Shown one piece after another: positions 7,678-31,424 of a stretch of 40,488 nucleotides of DNA (positions within the stretch are counted from its first letter, which is position 1; each line of letters starts with the position of its first letter). Origin of the DNA: a virus. The translations under genes were made by a program, and so were the position numbers. The stretch is taken from the IMG/VR virus record IMGVR_UViG_3300035670_000528, positions 1 to 40,488 of that record. One strand, written 5' to 3'. The notes beneath the pieces are model-generated. The model was not told the origin of the DNA. It ran no database searches and was given only the letters and a program-made list of their open reading frames with translations.

Positions 7678-10327
7678 ATACACCGAACAAGATCTGCAAA
7701 ATGCGCAGGCTAATATTGTAGACACTATTTCACGATTTATTCAGCTTAAAAAAAACGGCGCTGATTATTCTGCTTGCTGCCCGTTTCATGATGAGCAGAC
7801 CCCTTCATTTACTGTATCTGATAAAAAGGGATTTTTCCACTGTTTTGGTTGTGGCGCTCATGGCGATTCAATTGATTTCGTCATGCAATATGAAGGGCTA
7901 CCATTCCCTGATGCAGTGCAGCGCATTATTGGTAATTTGCCAGATGCAGGACAAGCACAATCAACGCAGCGCACTAAAACACACAAACCAAAGCCAGCGG
8001 TATGGCAACCTTTATTAAAAGCAAAATCGACAGCAACTGAATCTGACTTTTTACATCGCAGACACGGCAAGCCAACGCATGTATGGGAATACCGAAACCA
8101 AAAAAACGAACTCACTGGCTATGTGTGCAGGTTCCCTATCACAAAACCAGATGGAACGATTGGCAAAGAAACATTGCCGCTTGCATGGTGCGTAAATAGC
8201 GAAACTGGCGCTATCGAGTGGCGTTTCTTAGGTTTCGGAATTCCACGGCCTTTGTATGGATTGCAGAAACTCGCAACAAAAAAGCCTGTGATTATTTTTG
8301 AAGGCGAAAAAACAGCAGACGCAGGACAGAATTTTTTCAAGGCTGCTAATACGCTTACATGGCCTGGCGGTGGTAATGGCGTTAACAATGCTGACTTTAT
8401 GCCACTGGCAGGCGAAGATGTCACGCTTTGGCCTGATTTTGACTGGCAAATAGACGTTAAAACAGGAGAGTTAATACCTGAGCATAGCCAGCCAGGAATT
8501 AAAGCCATGCGCGCAGTTTATGAAAAGATTAAAGACATTGCAAACTCTGTCCGCATTGTTAAGCCATCGCGCGACTTTCAAGATGGATGGGATGTGGCAG
8601 ACGATGCGCCTATGGATAACTTTTCACCTTTTGATTACGCAAAAAATAACGTTGTGCCAGCGAGTGAATATTTTGCAGATCCTATAACAGAGCAGGAACC
8701 AGAAGCATTACCAGAACAAACGGCAGTTCAAATCGACCAAGAAAAGGATATGATTAATAAAAACATCCGCATCTTGGGATTTGATCGCGGCTCATATTAC
8801 GTTTATTCATTTTCAAAAAAGCAGATAGTAGAACTAAAAAAGTCAGACTTTACGCAAATTGGATTAATTGAAATTGCGCCTGCTGAATTTTGGGAGATTT
8901 TATATCCAGCAAAAAATGGATTTTCAAAAGATAAAGCTGCTGAATGGATCATTAACACCGCCCACGAACGCGGAATTTTTAACCCGTCTATGACTCGCGG
9001 TCGTGGTGCATGGATTGACAATAAGCGCGTGGTTTATCATTTTGGAGATCAGTTAAGCGTTGATGGCATATTAACGCCAGTGACTGCTATTGCTTCAAAA
9101 TTCATTTATGAAAATCAGAACATGCTGCCCGTCATTCCAAGCGATGCAATGACGGTTTCTGAATCGGAGAGCATTTACAACATATCTACTCAATTCAGAT
9201 GGTCGCGTGATGCTAGTGCTCCACTATTAGCTGGATGGATTGCACTTGCGCCTTTTTGCGGGGCGTTAAAATGGAGACCACACGTCTGGATTTCTGGCGG
9301 TGCTGGGTGCGGTAAAACTACGATTGTTAACGATTACATTCATACTCTGTTAAACGGCATTGACTTATTCGCGCAAGGTAACTCAACCGAAGCAGGCATC
9401 CGTCAAATGCTAGGAAGCGATGCGCGTCCAGTTATTTTTGATGAATCAGAACAGAACGACGAGCGCGAACAATCTAGGGTACAAAACATTCTGTCGCTAA
9501 TTAGGCAGGCATCAAGCGAATCAGCAGCACTGACATTAAAAGGCACAGCGACAGGATCAGCGATGACATTCTTAATTCGCAGCATGTTTTGCTTGTCATC
9601 AATTCAAGTCGGAATGAAGCATCAAGCGGATAAAGAGCGCCTGATTATTCTTAACCTACGCCCGAAGCATGAGCAATCAAACGCAACAGATCAATGGCGA
9701 GATTTATCAAATAAGCTGCAACTATTGCAACGCGATGAAACTGCGCCATCTAGGTTGTTTATGCGCTCGCTGTCTTTGCTACCTATCACATTGCAGAACA
9801 TTAAAATATTTTCTGATGTATGCAGTAAAAAATTTAATTCAGTGCGTGAAGGCGACCAGATTGGAACACTGATGGCTGGCGCTTATTCGATGCTATCTGA
9901 TGATATTGTCACGCCTGAATTTGCGCGCGATTACATTGATTCTTTTAGCTGGGATGAGCATAGGGATTACGCGGAGACAGATGAGGCTATGGCGGCGCTT
10001 TCTACGCTAATGGAGTGCCGTATTCGTGGCGCTTATGGTGAGACTTCTGTTTATGAAACTATTAAGCAGTCAATTAATAGTGCTACACCTGATGATTATC
10101 GTTCGTTGCTTGAGCGCTACGGCATGAAGATTAAAGACGGTTATTTATTGGTGAGCAATTCCAGCCATGCAATAAAAGAACTCATGAAAAATACGCCATA
10201 CGCGGCAGATATTAAGGGGCAATTAATCCGCATTAAAGGGGCAAAACGATGGGAAAATGAAAAATTTAGCGGTACACAAAGTCGAAGTGTTGGGATACCG
10301 CTTGGCATAATTGATTTAGCAAACTGA
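7667..10327 (+). CDS. Primase/helicase (CHC2 zinc finger, TOPRIM-like, P-loop ATPase)
   Basis: 886 residues from ATG 7667 (GGAG 7654-7657); an upstream in-frame start lies inside the previous gene. Residues 38-62 form a CHC2-type zinc finger (CPFH...HCFGCG) that binds template during priming. Residues 207-220 (PVIIFEGEKTADAG) and WPDFDW near 255 are TOPRIM-like. The C-terminal half is a DUF927-type ATPase with Walker A GGAGCGKT (544-551) and Walker B PVIFDESE (588-595). It should make primers and unwind DNA at the phage fork. It is followed directly by a terminator and the origin-like region, and no phage DNA polymerase is present, so host polymerase would extend. Confidence 0.9.
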   Translation: MANKYTEQDLQNAQANIVDTISRFIQLKKNGADYSACCPFHDEQTPSFTVSDKKGFFHCFGCGAHGDSIDFVMQYEGLPFPDAVQRIIGNLPDAGQAQSTQRTKTHKPKPAVWQPLLKAKSTATESDFLHRRHGKPTHVWEYRNQKNELTGYVCRFPITKPDGTIGKETLPLAWCVNSETGAIEWRFLGFGIPRPLYGLQKLATKKPVIIFEGEKTADAGQNFFKAANTLTWPGGGNGVNNADFMPLAGEDVTLWPDFDWQIDVKTGELIPEHSQPGIKAMRAVYEKIKDIANSVRIVKPSRDFQDGWDVADDAPMDNFSPFDYAKNNVVPASEYFADPITEQEPEALPEQTAVQIDQEKDMINKNIRILGFDRGSYYVYSFSKKQIVELKKSDFTQIGLIEIAPAEFWEILYPAKNGFSKDKAAEWIINTAHERGIFNPSMTRGRGAWIDNKRVVYHFGDQLSVDGILTPVTAIASKFIYENQNMLPVIPSDAMTVSESESIYNISTQFRWSRDASAPLLAGWIALAPFCGALKWRPHVWISGGAGCGKTTIVNDYIHTLLNGIDLFAQGNSTEAGIRQMLGSDARPVIFDESEQNDEREQSRVQNILSLIRQASSESAALTLKGTATGSAMTFLIRSMFCLSSIQVGMKHQADKERLIILNLRPKHEQSNATDQWRDLSNKLQLLQRDETAPSRLFMRSLSLLPITLQNIKIFSDVCSKKFNSVREGDQIGTLMAGAYSMLSDDIVTPEFARDYIDSFSWDEHRDYAETDEAMAALSTLMECRIRGAYGETSVYETIKQSINSATPDDYRSLLERYGMKIKDGYLLVSNSSHAIKELMKNTPYAADIKGQLIRIKGAKRWENEKFSGTQSRSVGIPLGIIDLAN

Positions 10328-10347
10328 CCCGCTTCGGCGGGTTTTTT
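10327..10347 (+). terminator. Rho-independent terminator
   Basis: ACCCGC, tetraloop TTCG, GCGGGT, followed by a T-run (10342-10347). The stem starts on the last base of the primase/helicase stop codon. Closes the early/middle plus-strand operon. Confidence 0.9.
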
Positions 10348-10352
10348 ATTGA

Positions 10353-10677
10353 GGTTACGAAAAAACCGTAACCAGAAAAATCACTGTAACCGCACTTTTC
10401 CTTTTAAAATCAACGCGGTTACGCGGTTACGGTTTTTTCTGGAGATAGAGCTATATAGAGATATGTATACATAAATAGCCATATATAGATACAAAAATAA
10501 ATATCCCTTATTATTATTATATATTTATGTAACTTTATAATAATAATAGGCGTTTTTATGTTGCAAATCAATAACTTACGTTGGTTACTTAAAGTAAATT
10601 CTAGCGTAACCGAGTGATAAAAAACTGTTTAAAATCAAATACTTAGCGGTTACGGTCAAGTGTAACCGAGCGTAACC
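10353..10677. repeat. Ten GGTTAC/GTAACC iterons: origin or control region
   Basis: The hexamer GGTTAC or its complement begins at 10353, 10368, 10386, 10417, 10425, 10583, 10606, 10648, 10662 and 10672 (extended consensus CGGTTACG). Chance would give well under one copy. The first five and last five flank an AT-rich segment (10440-10560) that contains a long inverted repeat. A perfect 14-bp inverted repeat (10360-10373 with 10425-10438) spans cluster one. It lies right after the primase/helicase and before terminase. Fits a replication origin with iterons and an unwinding region; multi-site transcriptional control is the alternative. No convincing gene lies in 10348-10744. Confidence 0.75.
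10506..10550. repeat. AT-rich inverted repeat (possible DNA unwinding element)
   Basis: The left arm 10506-10521 pairs with the right arm 10536-10550 across about 15 bp, with one bulged T and a 14-nt loop. Arms consist of ATT/AAT triplets capped by CC/GG. It lies between the two iteron clusters. It could be a duplex-unwinding element, or a weak bidirectional transcription signal. Confidence 0.65.
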
Positions 10678-10708
10678 GGACAAAAATCGACCCCACATTA
10701 CCACCTTC

Positions 10709-10737
10709 TTTACAAAACCATACATTCGTGGTATATA
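10709..10737 (+). promoter_or_regulatory. Putative promoter of packaging/late genes
   Basis: TTTACA (10709-10714), 17-nt spacer, TATATA (10732-10737). The expected start point is within a few bases of the ATG of the terminase small subunit at 10745. The dyad CCATAC (10718-10723)/GTATGG (10743-10748) brackets the -10 and the start codon and may be an operator. No Shine-Dalgarno sequence precedes the ATG. Confidence 0.4.
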
Positions 10738-10744
10738 TGTTGGT

Positions 10745-22040: not shown

Positions 22041-22068
22041 CCTGCCAGATCGTAACTGGCAGGTTTTT
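22041..22068 (+). terminator. Rho-independent terminator after tube gene
   Basis: CCTGCCAG (22041-22048), loop ATCGTAA, CTGGCAGG (22056-22063), T5. A smaller inverted repeat ATTGCA/TGCAAT (22022-22027 and 22033-22038) lies just before it. Confidence 0.88.
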
Positions 22069-22093: not shown

Positions 22094-22471
22094 ATGGCAA
22101 AAATTGTACTAGGTAAAGCCCCTAAAAACTTTAAACGCAAAATCACCATTGACATGATTGATGGCGGCAAAGGTGATATTGAGTTTACATTTAAATATCG
22201 CACACGCAGCGAGTATGCCGAGTTGATGGATAAAACACTGGCGGCAGAATCAGGCGCTGATGTGCCAAAAGACGAAACAGCGGCACAAGCGTTTGCCCGT
22301 ATTGGCGATGGAACTGTTGATTTTATTCTTGCTATTGCCGAAGCATGGGATTTGGATGACGAGTTTAATGCTGAAAACATTAAAACATTGATCGACACAT
22401 TCCCTGCAATTACACCAGCGGCAAGCGAAGTATATCGCCATGCAGTATTAGAAGGTCGCACAAAAAACTAG
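22094..22471 (+). CDS. Tail assembly chaperone, upstream product
   Basis: 125 residues, ATG 22094 with AAAGGA upstream. KRKITIDMIDGGKGDIEFTFKYRTRSEYAELM is the pattern of siphophage tail assembly chaperones (lambda G equivalents). The last sense codons ACA AAA AAC and the stop TAG coincide with a -1 frameshift signal, so a fraction of ribosomes make a 227-residue fusion with the downstream frame. The chaperones coat the tape measure before the tube polymerises. Confidence 0.85.
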   Translation: MAKIVLGKAPKNFKRKITIDMIDGGKGDIEFTFKYRTRSEYAELMDKTLAAESGADVPKDETAAQAFARIGDGTVDFILAIAEAWDLDDEFNAENIKTLIDTFPAITPAASEVYRHAVLEGRTKN

Positions 22472-22511
22472 AAGGCCTCGGCGCTGCAATGTACACGCAG
22501 CGAAACGAGGC
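22462..22511 (+). promoter_or_regulatory. -1 programmed ribosomal frameshift signal
   Basis: The slippery heptamer A AAA AAC (22462-22468) is in the correct phase, with TAG directly after it. After a 6-nt spacer comes a two-part stem: GCCTCG (22475-22480) with CGAGGC (22506-22511), and CGCTGC (22482-22487) with GCAGCG (22497-22502), loop of 9 nt. Slipping by -1 reads on as L-E-G-L-G-A-A-M-Y into the downstream frame. All elements of a classical signal are present. Confidence 0.92.
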
Positions 22512-22776
22512 TGAACTAAACGCATTTGGCCTGACATTGGATGACTTCGACGACAGTTATGATGTCTGGCCTGATTGCTGGGAATCATATCGCGTATTCG
22601 ACCACTGTAATACGCAATGGAATCACGGATTTAACGGCGTAGTTGGCTTGCGTTATGAATCATTATCTTTTATTTGTTCGGCAATTGATGTAAAATTATG
22701 TGAAGATTTATTAATAGACATTCGCATACTTGAATTGGCAGCGATGCGTGAGATTAACAGCCGGAAAGGGAAATGA
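22489..22776 (+). CDS. Tail assembly chaperone, frameshift extension (GT-like, DUF1799-like)
   Basis: 95 residues if begun at ATG 22489, but that ATG lies in the loop of the frameshift hairpin and has no ribosome binding site. It is better read as the T part of a G-T fusion: 125 residues from 22094 plus 102 residues from 22468. The DVWPDCW and QWNHGFNGVVGLRYESL segments resemble DUF1799, the usual second chaperone domain. It ends four bases into the tape measure gene. Confidence 0.85.
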   Translation: MYTQRNEAELNAFGLTLDDFDDSYDVWPDCWESYRVFDHCNTQWNHGFNGVVGLRYESLSFICSAIDVKLCEDLLIDIRILELAAMREINSRKGK

Positions 22777-29449: not shown

Positions 29450-29634
29450 GACGCATGATCGCAGACATAGGCGGCAGGCGTTTTTTAATGACTATAGGCT
29501 GCGGCATTATGTCTGCTGTATTGCTATGGTGCGGAAAAATAACATCTAGCGATTACACGACGATTACAATCGCCACAGTTGCGGTTTATATCGGCGGCAA
29601 TACATATCAGAAAACTAAAGGGGCACCAGATTGA
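29446..29634 (+). CDS. Holin-like membrane protein
   Basis: 62 residues, ATG 29446 overlapping the endolysin stop. Two hydrophobic helices (RRFLMTIGCGIMSAVLLWCG and YTTITIATVAVYIGGNTYQ) with short basic ends. Size, topology and place between endolysin and Rz fit a class II holin-type protein; either this or the 28875 gene may be the holin and the other its partner. Confidence 0.75.
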   Translation: MRRMIADIGGRRFLMTIGCGIMSAVLLWCGKITSSDYTTITIATVAVYIGGNTYQKTKGAPD

Positions 29635-30176
29635 TTACCGCTATGGCATTCATACGAAACAACTGGCAAGCGCTGGCAATTATCGCAATTGCTGGCGTTA
29701 TTTTTATGCGCATAGATATACTGAAATCAGAGCGCGATGACGCATTAGCAACGATTGCAGAGATGCGCACGGCTGCTTTAAAACAAGCGGTTGAGGTAAA
29801 GGTATCAGCGCAGGCAGGAAAACAAGCCGTACAAGCAGTTATTGAGCGCAATAAATCAGATATTCAGCACATTGGAGGCTTATATGCAAACGAAATACAA
29901 AAACGCGATGCAACTATCAATAATTATCGCCGTGAGCTTGCTAGCAGGTTGCGCGAACAATCCGACAGTAGTGACAGCTCCATGCAAACTCATGACGCCA
30001 ATATCACTGCCGGAAACGACAGCAACGGAGTATCTGCTACAGAAAGCGTTGATTGCACAGCCGAAAAAGGATACATCAGAACGTTAGAAGAAGCTGGCGC
30101 AGTATGTGCTGCTGACTATAATATGTGCCGTGCTTATGTTGTAACTGAGCAGCAAAGGATTGGCGTTCATGAGTAG
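29631..30176 (+). CDS. Rz: Inner-membrane spanin subunit (Rz-like)
   Basis: 181 residues from a TTG at 29631, chosen because AAAGGGG is 8-9 nt upstream and the codon overlaps the previous stop; ATG 29643 is the alternative. One N-terminal membrane anchor (about 12-28) is followed by a long charged coiled coil in the periplasm. An o-spanin gene is nested inside in another frame. The pair spans the periplasm and fuses the two membranes at lysis. Confidence 0.82.
   Translation: MITAMAFIRNNWQALAIIAIAGVIFMRIDILKSERDDALATIAEMRTAALKQAVEVKVSAQAGKQAVQAVIERNKSDIQHIGGLYANEIQKRDATINNYRRELASRLREQSDSSDSSMQTHDANITAGNDSNGVSATESVDCTAEKGYIRTLEEAGAVCAADYNMCRAYVVTEQQRIGVHE
29884..30087 (+). CDS. Rz1: Outer-membrane spanin lipoprotein (Rz1-like), nested in Rz
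   Basis: 67 residues in a different frame wholly inside the Rz-like gene. ATG 29884 with GGAGG 5 nt upstream. Signal peptide MQTKYKNAMQLSIIIAVSLLAGC ends in a lipobox (LLAGC, lipidated Cys 23). The mature part is short with several Pro. This is the classical embedded o-spanin and shows the host has an outer membrane. Confidence 0.9.
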   Translation: MQTKYKNAMQLSIIIAVSLLAGCANNPTVVTAPCKLMTPISLPETTATEYLLQKALIAQPKKDTSER

Positions 30177-30181
30177 GCTGG

Positions 30182-30451
30182 TGCTGGTTACGATTCCAGC
30201 ATAGACTTATCGTATCTATCGCGCGTTAGAAAACTACACGGTGGGTGGCTAATCGCTTTGACTGCCTCCCATGGTGCTATCCACTTAAGGCCGTTAACCA
30301 CTGACAGAACCCCGCTTTCACCCACACGGCTGGCGAATGAACCCTCGGTGCTATGCCACCGATATTCTTTCAGGGCTGAGTTCATATTGCCGGACAAGCA
30401 ATCATCCAATCGCCGCCCGTGTGAATGCTGGCATCCGGCCAGCGCGGTTTT
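30182..30451 (+). ncRNA. Candidate structured non-coding RNA with three-way junction
   Basis: The gap between convergent genes is visibly GC-richer than its surroundings and folds compactly. The main helix pairs 30323-30336 with 30410-30423 (12 Watson-Crick pairs, one G-U, one mismatch). Inside, two arms abut without gaps: 30337-30345 with 30372-30374/30380-30385 plus tip 30346-30350/30357-30361, and 30386-30390 with 30398-30402. A 5' hairpin (30182-30201), smaller ones (30201-30219, 30224-30240) and a 3' hairpin (30427-30443) followed by GCGGTTTTA complete it. The 3' hairpin may end transcription. G-U pairs exist only on the plus strand, favouring that orientation. No known family recognised. 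Confidence 0.6.
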
Positions 30452-30653
30452 AGTGCATATTGTAAGTTTTACAATCGCGCATATCTTCACAAATAATGTA
30501 TCCATCTGATCCGACAAAAAAGAAACACCAAAAATTAATTTGTAATAATCCAAACCCCCATTGTATGCCTCTATTATAAAAAGCATCCCAAAGACGAAAT
30601 GACATAGTAAGCCTTTTAATTCTTATACGTGGTGCAGACAAATTTATGTACAC
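30450..30653 (-). CDS. Small aromatic-rich protein at the end of the minus-strand operon
   Basis: 67 residues from a GTG at 30653 with AAAGGA 5 nt upstream. Begins MYINLSAPRIRIKRLTMSFRLWDAF, then GIQWGFGLLQINFWCFFFVG, ending in a polar Cys-containing tail. The hydrophobic core may associate with membrane. The stop codon touches the 3' end of the candidate RNA. No family known. Confidence 0.6.
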   Translation of the reverse strand: MYINLSAPRIRIKRLTMSFRLWDAFYNRGIQWGFGLLQINFWCFFFVGSDGYIICEDMRDCKTYNMH

Positions 30654-30682
30654 AGTAATCCTTTCTTTCGCCTATGCGACAA

Positions 30683-30829
30683 TTAAACCAACTTACCACC
30701 AGCACTAAAATTTTTAATCACAATCTTGTTATCAATAGACGAGATAACTTGAGTGCGCTTGCCTACCTGATGCAACACATAATCAACGCCATTGTCTTTA
30801 AGTTGTTGCTGATATTTGCCGATATTCAT
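30683..30829 (-). CDS. Very small hypothetical protein downstream of ssb
   Basis: 48 residues from the ATG at 30829 (AAAGG upstream). The frame stays open to a GTG at 30904, which would add 25 residues, but that start has no visible ribosome site. Contains NGVDYVLHQVGKRTQVISS, a plausible small beta/alpha fold. Function unknown. Confidence 0.55.
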   Translation of the reverse strand: MNIGKYQQQLKDNGVDYVLHQVGKRTQVISSIDNKIVIKNFSAGGKLV

Positions 30830-30956
30830 TTTTTGCCTTTCGTTGGTTGGTGGGTAAATTAATTCCAGCACTCTCGCAGCCGGAACTCGGTTTAACCTTG
30901 CCACTATTTGCGCCGAAGCGTGGAGGAGTATTGCACGTTAAACTGACTAGATTATT

Positions 30957-30979
30957 AACGCCATGCTAGCCTGGGCGTT
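30957..30979. other. Hairpin downstream of ssb
   Basis: AACGCCA (30957-30963) pairs with TGG(G)CGTT (30972-30979), one bulged G, loop containing GCTAGC. It lies a few bases after the ssb stop on the minus strand. No T-run on the minus strand, so it may stabilise the ssb mRNA end more than terminate. Confidence 0.45.
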
Positions 30980-30986
30980 TGAAAAA

Positions 30987-31424
30987 TTAAAAAGGAATGT
31001 TGTCTTCAAAATCGTCCGCTGGTTTTGATGGCGCACTAGATGGCGGCGCTGATTGCTGGCTAGTATTGCCGCCACTATCGCCACTGCCTGCGGTATCTCT
31101 GCCACCTAACAATTGCATACTATCGCCAATAATTTCAGTGCTGTAACGCTTAACACCGTCTTTTTCCCATTCGCGCGTTTGCAAGCGGCCTTCAATATAA
31201 ACTGGACGACCTTTTTTAAGATACTCGCCTGCAACTTCTGCAAGGCGGCGATACAAAACAATATTATGCCATTCAGTTTTGCTTTGTGCATTGCCTGCTT
31301 TATCTTTCCAGTTTTCAGTGGTGGCAATGCTGAAATTTGCAACTGCTTCACCATTTGGCATATATCGCACTTCTGGATCGCGGCCTAGATTGCCCATTAA
31401 AATTACTTTGTTCACGCTTGCCAT
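30987..31424 (-). CDS. ssb: Single-stranded DNA-binding protein
   Basis: 145 residues; ATG 31424 with AAGGAAAA upstream. The OB-fold core is typical ([57 protein letters not shown]). A Gly/Ser/Pro-rich linker leads to the acidic tip DDFEDNIPF that binds host replication and repair proteins. Coats ssDNA during replication and recombination. It lies downstream of the RecE-like exonuclease genes in the same operon. Confidence 0.96.

Follow-up and report, generated by a model that had tools for sequence, protein, structure and literature searches.

The segment that separates two head-on operons in the genome of an uncultivated phage is GC-rich, structured and probably non-coding, and we tentatively propose that it gives the transcript of the minus-strand SSB/recombination operon a structured 3' tail, which might end or stabilise that transcript. 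This reading is favoured by the gene layout, the strand on which the excess folding is found and the lack of a normal terminator. The gap is an ordinary candidate, namely a modestly significant structured intergenic segment of an orphan phage, with its structure on the strand opposite to the one preferred in a first-pass annotation of the same DNA, and it is probably an ordinary structured transcript end rather than a demonstrated new RNA. The inverted repeats, the excess folding of the minus strand, the convergent layout and the lack of a coding signal are observed; that an RNA is produced, where it would end and what role it would play are points that we infer.

Gene layout and coding potential of the gap

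The virus record was analysed whole, and these 40,488 bp are referred to here as the window. Its gene content is of the siphovirus type, and it encodes a terminase with Terminase_6N and Terminase_6C domains and an M15 peptidase endolysin. The closest capsid relatives share 84% amino acid identity in IMG/VR and just 46% among cultured phages, which indicates that this phage is without a close cultured relative. A minus-strand replication/recombination cluster (33717-30683), with p76, p286, phrog_11517 protein, SSB and 73-aa protein, meets the plus-strand lysis genes head-on at the stop of the Rz-like gene (Table 1). An Rz1-like ORF is nested in the Rz-like gene (PHROG match, E 9e-4), and the start of the same gene contains a strong 13-pair hairpin at 29669-29699, which is followed by ATTTTTA.

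The first-pass annotation had described a GC-rich gap of 273 bp between the Rz stop and the last minus-strand ORF. Both parts of this description agree with our results, as the Rz stop lies at 30176, the minus-strand ORF ends at 30450 and the 240-nt stretch starting at 30241 has a GC content of 0.537, which is the maximum of the genome (mean 0.434). The non-coding gap may extend to 506 bp (30177-30682), with the ORF ending at 30450 scoring as non-coding. This 67-aa ORF is rich in aromatic residues and its codon use is like that of non-coding sequence; a weak 36% match to a dNMP kinase from Aeromonas phages (E 0.2) was put down to chance. According to codon statistics, the 67-aa minus-strand ORF, a 132-aa minus-strand ORF and an 83-aa plus-strand ORF group with shadow ORFs and not with genes. 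The minus-strand ORF 30188-30586 has a coding score of -0.06, or -0.13 for the part inside the gap, on a scale on which genes range from 0.005 to 0.31 and shadow ORFs lie at -0.15 +/- 0.11. Due to this non-coding-like score and the absence of relatives in database searches, it was rejected as a protein-coding gene.

Table 1. Genes and predicted structural features in and around the gap between the convergent operons.
Feature	Position	Strand	Remarks
Rz-like spanin gene	29631..30176	+	final gene of the plus-strand lysis/late cluster; stop at 30176
73-aa gene and SSB gene	30683..31424	-	last genes of the minus-strand cluster, whose transcript would bear the tail
Whole structured gap	30177..30450	-	Rz stop to stop of the small minus-strand ORF; non-coding by codon statistics
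Small ORF, 67 aa, doubtful gene	30450..30653	-	GTG start preceded by Shine-Dalgarno-like AAAGGA
Core fold, long helix and internal hairpin	30317..30430	-	z -3.81
Main helix, 5' strand (minus sense)	30404..30427	-	pairs with 30319-30342; 21/24 positions paired, 4 G-U
Main helix, 3' strand	30319..30342	-	partner of 30404-30427
Inner hairpin UCGGUG-GCAUAG-CACCGA (minus sense)	30345..30362	-	pair probability 0.98 minus, 0.91 plus
Outer closing stem CGCGC/GCGCG	30442..30446 with 30220..30224	- only	pair probability 0.68 minus, 0.04 plus
Second closing stem GGCCG/CGGCC	30436..30440 with 30289..30293	- only	pair probability 0.68 minus, 0.02 plus
Hairpin TGCTGG..CCAGCA adjoining the Rz stop	30182..30201	-	pair probability 0.86; RNA 3' end if transcription runs through
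Weak terminator candidate, hairpin and CGGTTTT	30426..30444	+	pair probability 0.24 plus

Folding of the gap on the two strands

Measured against dinucleotide shuffles, the whole gap folds more strongly than expected on the minus strand, with a minimum energy of -103.8 kcal/mol and a z of about -3.06 to -3.31 (0 of 200 and 1 of 400 shuffles were as good), whereas the plus strand, with -86.3 kcal/mol and a z of about -1.22 to -1.6, is near chance (18 of 200 shuffles). The plus-strand RNA preferred in the first-pass annotation is therefore at odds with the strand that carries the excess. For the core fold, 2 of 400 shuffles were as good on the minus strand, and the plus strand has a z of -2.07. 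The adjoining strip 30452-30682 is unstructured (z -0.34 and 1.55), and when ten intergenic gaps were folded on both strands, the only outliers were this gap on the minus strand and 10328-10744 on both strands. The excess is real but modest, corresponding to roughly 1 in 150 to 1 in 200 windows, in a region that was picked by eye. The gap window ranks 5th among 1008 overlapping, GC-corrected 240-nt windows. Although unusual, the fold has equals in this genome, since 5 of 710 unselected 114-nt windows (about 0.7%, 20 shuffles each) also reach a z of -3.8 or lower.

All inverted repeats listed in the first-pass annotation are present as sequence where they had been placed. The 14-position helix (30323-30336 with 30410-30423) pairs at 13 of 14 positions on the plus strand, including one G-U pair, and at 12 of 14 on the minus strand. 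The claim that G-U pairs are confined to the plus strand is correct within these 14 positions, but does not extend to the whole minus-strand helix with its four G-U pairs. The best helix score on the minus strand is 40 (41 in the best register), compared with a shuffle mean of 27 (sd 3.6), and none of 150 shuffles reached it; the best plus-strand score was matched by 9 of 150 shuffles. In silico, the main helix has a pair probability of 0.98 on both strands, and the two closing stems join the gap into a single domain on the minus strand only (probability 0.68).

It had also been suggested that the helix encloses a three-way junction. The two abutting arms, ATGAAC..GTTCAT (30337-30385) and ATTGC..GCAAT (30386-30402), exist as sequence; their outer pairs reach probabilities of 0.34 and 0.47 on the minus strand and 0.12 and 0.20 on the plus strand, which makes the junction a minority state, and the junction fold on the minus strand lies 5.5 kcal/mol above the optimum. 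As the arms are improbable on both strands and the energy is above the optimum on the minus strand, a three-way junction RNA was rejected as the dominant fold. The competing helix GTGGGTG/CACCCAC is present as sequence, but the switching ascribed to it is contradicted by a pairing probability of 0.00 on both strands, and its size is ordinary, as a stretch of 270 nt should contain about two 7-bp matches by chance. Similarly, both copies of GGTGCTAT-(G)CCAC are found, but a repeat of this kind is at chance level, and no further copies of the GGTGCTAT-CCAC motif were detected elsewhere in the genome. A kissing loop TACGAT/ATCGTA between two hairpins at 30182-30222 was attributed to chance, as each strand has 9-11 pairs of this kind and shuffled sequences have about 7.

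The strongest-folding gap of the genome is 10328-10744 (z -4.6 on the plus strand and -3.8 on the minus strand), located after a primase/helicase-like gene. It starts with the canonical terminator 10326-10343, is rich in GGTTACG/CGTAACC repeats on both strands and has the appearance of an origin of replication or a control region. At 22462-22515, A AAA AAC is found just before the TAG of ORF 22094-22471 and is followed by a strong stem-loop (z -6.6 for 22459-22572, from few shuffles, and -3.2 for 22440-22580), and the -1 frame contains ORF 22489-22776. This arrangement resembles the -1 frameshift found in genes for tail assembly chaperones.

Possible functions of the gap

In an intrinsic terminator, a U-run comes immediately after a stable hairpin on the transcribed strand or strands. 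No clear minus-strand intrinsic terminator was found inside the gap in a scan for hairpins with U-runs, and the plus-strand candidates are limited to 30426-30444 (with CGGTTTT) and 30345-30362 (with TATTCTTT), so that an intrinsic or bidirectional terminator was rejected. The 3' hairpin with a T-run noted in the first-pass annotation does exist at 30426-30444, but is followed only by CGGTTTT, and the region has no more terminator-like matches than shuffled sequences do (6 observed, 6.1 in shuffles). Canonical intrinsic terminators are present elsewhere in the genome, at 10326-10343 and 22041-22063, and none is found in the gap, which leaves room for another kind of transcript end. The terminator at 22041-22063, CCTGCCAG..CTGGCAGG followed by TTTTT, is situated between tail genes.

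We propose that the tail would be carried by the operon running from p76 to the 73-aa protein gene, possibly including the 67-aa ORF. As RNA polymerase exits the last minus-strand gene, the RNA would fold as one domain, from about 30446 to 30220, which would be closed by the CGCGC/GCGCG and GGCCG/CGGCC stems and have a helix of about 21 pairs with the inner hairpin at its centre. Such a tail would most likely end or pause minus-strand transcription or shield the 3' end from exonucleases, resulting in less antisense run-through into the head-on lysis genes. Several observations speak against a tail: no homologue was found in our searches, other windows of the genome fold equally strongly, the gap has no clear minus-strand terminator and, should the 67-aa ORF prove not to be a gene, the structure starts more than 200 nt past the last real minus-strand gene. 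We consider it unlikely that the gap encodes an undescribed minus-strand RNA of about 230 nt, which would be processed from the 3' end of the replication operon, fold as one domain and act as a regulator while the phage switches to lysis, and nothing speaks for a late, packaged or switching RNA. If the RNA exists, this would be another phage with a structured RNA at the meeting point of early and late operons, and it would show that antisense run-through into lysis genes can be limited without a classical terminator. With the sequence of one genome as its present basis, it is a candidate and not yet a finding.

A serious rival, although a doubtful one, is that chance and composition account for the gap, which would then be a non-coding spacer of high GC content, perhaps the remnant of a gene or a piece of foreign DNA, with functionless inverted repeats. 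The unselected windows with equally strong folds are in line with this idea, as are the loop-loop complementarity, the repeats and the competing helix, all of which are at chance level, and relatives of the gap were found nowhere in the phages, plasmids, patterns, loci and records searched. The Rfam scan gave no matches at gathering score in the window and none at E <= 5 in 30000-30700. Distant blastn of the gap against phages and plasmids returned just a 25-nt chance match, exact and degenerate patterns had no match in IMG/VR, and one pattern searched in GTDB was likewise empty. With the endolysin, SSB, phrog_11517 protein, tail protein, capsid and p127 as anchor genes, the gap was absent from about 265 related loci (about 2.36 Mb), the nearest of which (capsid 84% aa) are either short contigs or differ in their lysis regions, and a capsid scan of genome contigs revealed zero relatives. 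Weak DNA matches in the relatives G007 and G012 are located in a tape-measure gene, and a 405-nt convergent gap in locus L276 was rejected as a counterpart, as it has an ordinary terminator and a tRNA-like end instead. The covariance model R1 was built from a single sequence and hence has a short reach, so that its empty results without a known positive show little: with default filters, it gave no match at E < 2 in the loci and none at E <= 1 in 100 whole viral records. In the window, R1 matches solely itself and its own reverse complement, and unfiltered its best E was 0.13, in four loci. The lack of homologues in these searches does not mark the gap as unconserved. Chance has to contend with a core z of -3.8 and a helix above all 150 shuffles in a genome with little non-coding DNA, and with the lack of such structure in most other gaps.

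One might also speculate that the gap encodes an independent small regulatory RNA, either processed from the minus-strand 3' end or transcribed from a start close to it, with host or phage mRNAs as its targets in trans. A size of about 230 nt and the 3'-UTR-like place would suit such an RNA, and phage phiKZ produces UTR-derived and intergenic non-coding RNAs (PMC8545117), but the 5' side on the minus strand is without a promoter-like site and the RNA would have no U-rich end, and we regard this as rather unlikely. Quite unlikely, in our view, is a plus-strand late RNA or a plus-strand lysis-operon terminator, to which a Rho-type stretch rich in C at 30250-30349 would belong: the main helix is equally stable on that strand, the hairpin with CGGTTTT is located there and the plus-strand C excess at 30250-30374 is among roughly the highest 1% in the genome, but folding is near shuffle level, the closing stems are absent and terminator-like matches occur in shuffle numbers. 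A DNA-level element, such as a replication, packaging or recombination site with hairpins acting as DNA, is very improbable; the TGCTGG/CCAGC stem common to the terminal hairpins gives an 11-nt inverted repeat at both ends, but the origin-like repeats sit at 10328-10744 and strand-specific excess folding is unneeded for a DNA function.

Comparison with known systems

Theta ribozymes are a minimal HDV-like class, in which P4 is absent (PMC10879173). On the minus strand of the gap, it is possible to draw a nested P1-P2-P4 arrangement from GCCGGAU/GUCCGGC, the main helix and the AUGAAC/GUUCAU arm. HDV-like ribozymes are defined by a nested double pseudoknot with a 7-bp P1, P3, P1.1 and a catalytic C in J4/2; here, P1.1 is without a G partner (AAUAUG after P1), P3 is mostly G-U, J4/2 is unmatched, no tRNA is nearby and Rfam gave no match at E <= 5, and this assignment was rejected.

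The phiKZ RNAs, one of which is about 100 nt long, resemble the gap element as structured phage RNAs from UTRs or intergenic regions without a convincing ORF; they were detected as RNA (PMC8545117), whereas the gap element is a candidate predicted from sequence. Bidirectional terminators are likewise found between head-on operons and contain GC-rich inverted repeats, but in the gap neither strand has a hairpin followed by a proper U-run. The sib retroregulator of phage lambda is located downstream of int, is a target of RNase III and has a known effect on int. The RNase III site, the factor and the effect on int belong to sib, and the candidate gap is likened to it by position and fold: like sib, it would be a structured 3' UTR element of a phage transcript, which could set mRNA stability.
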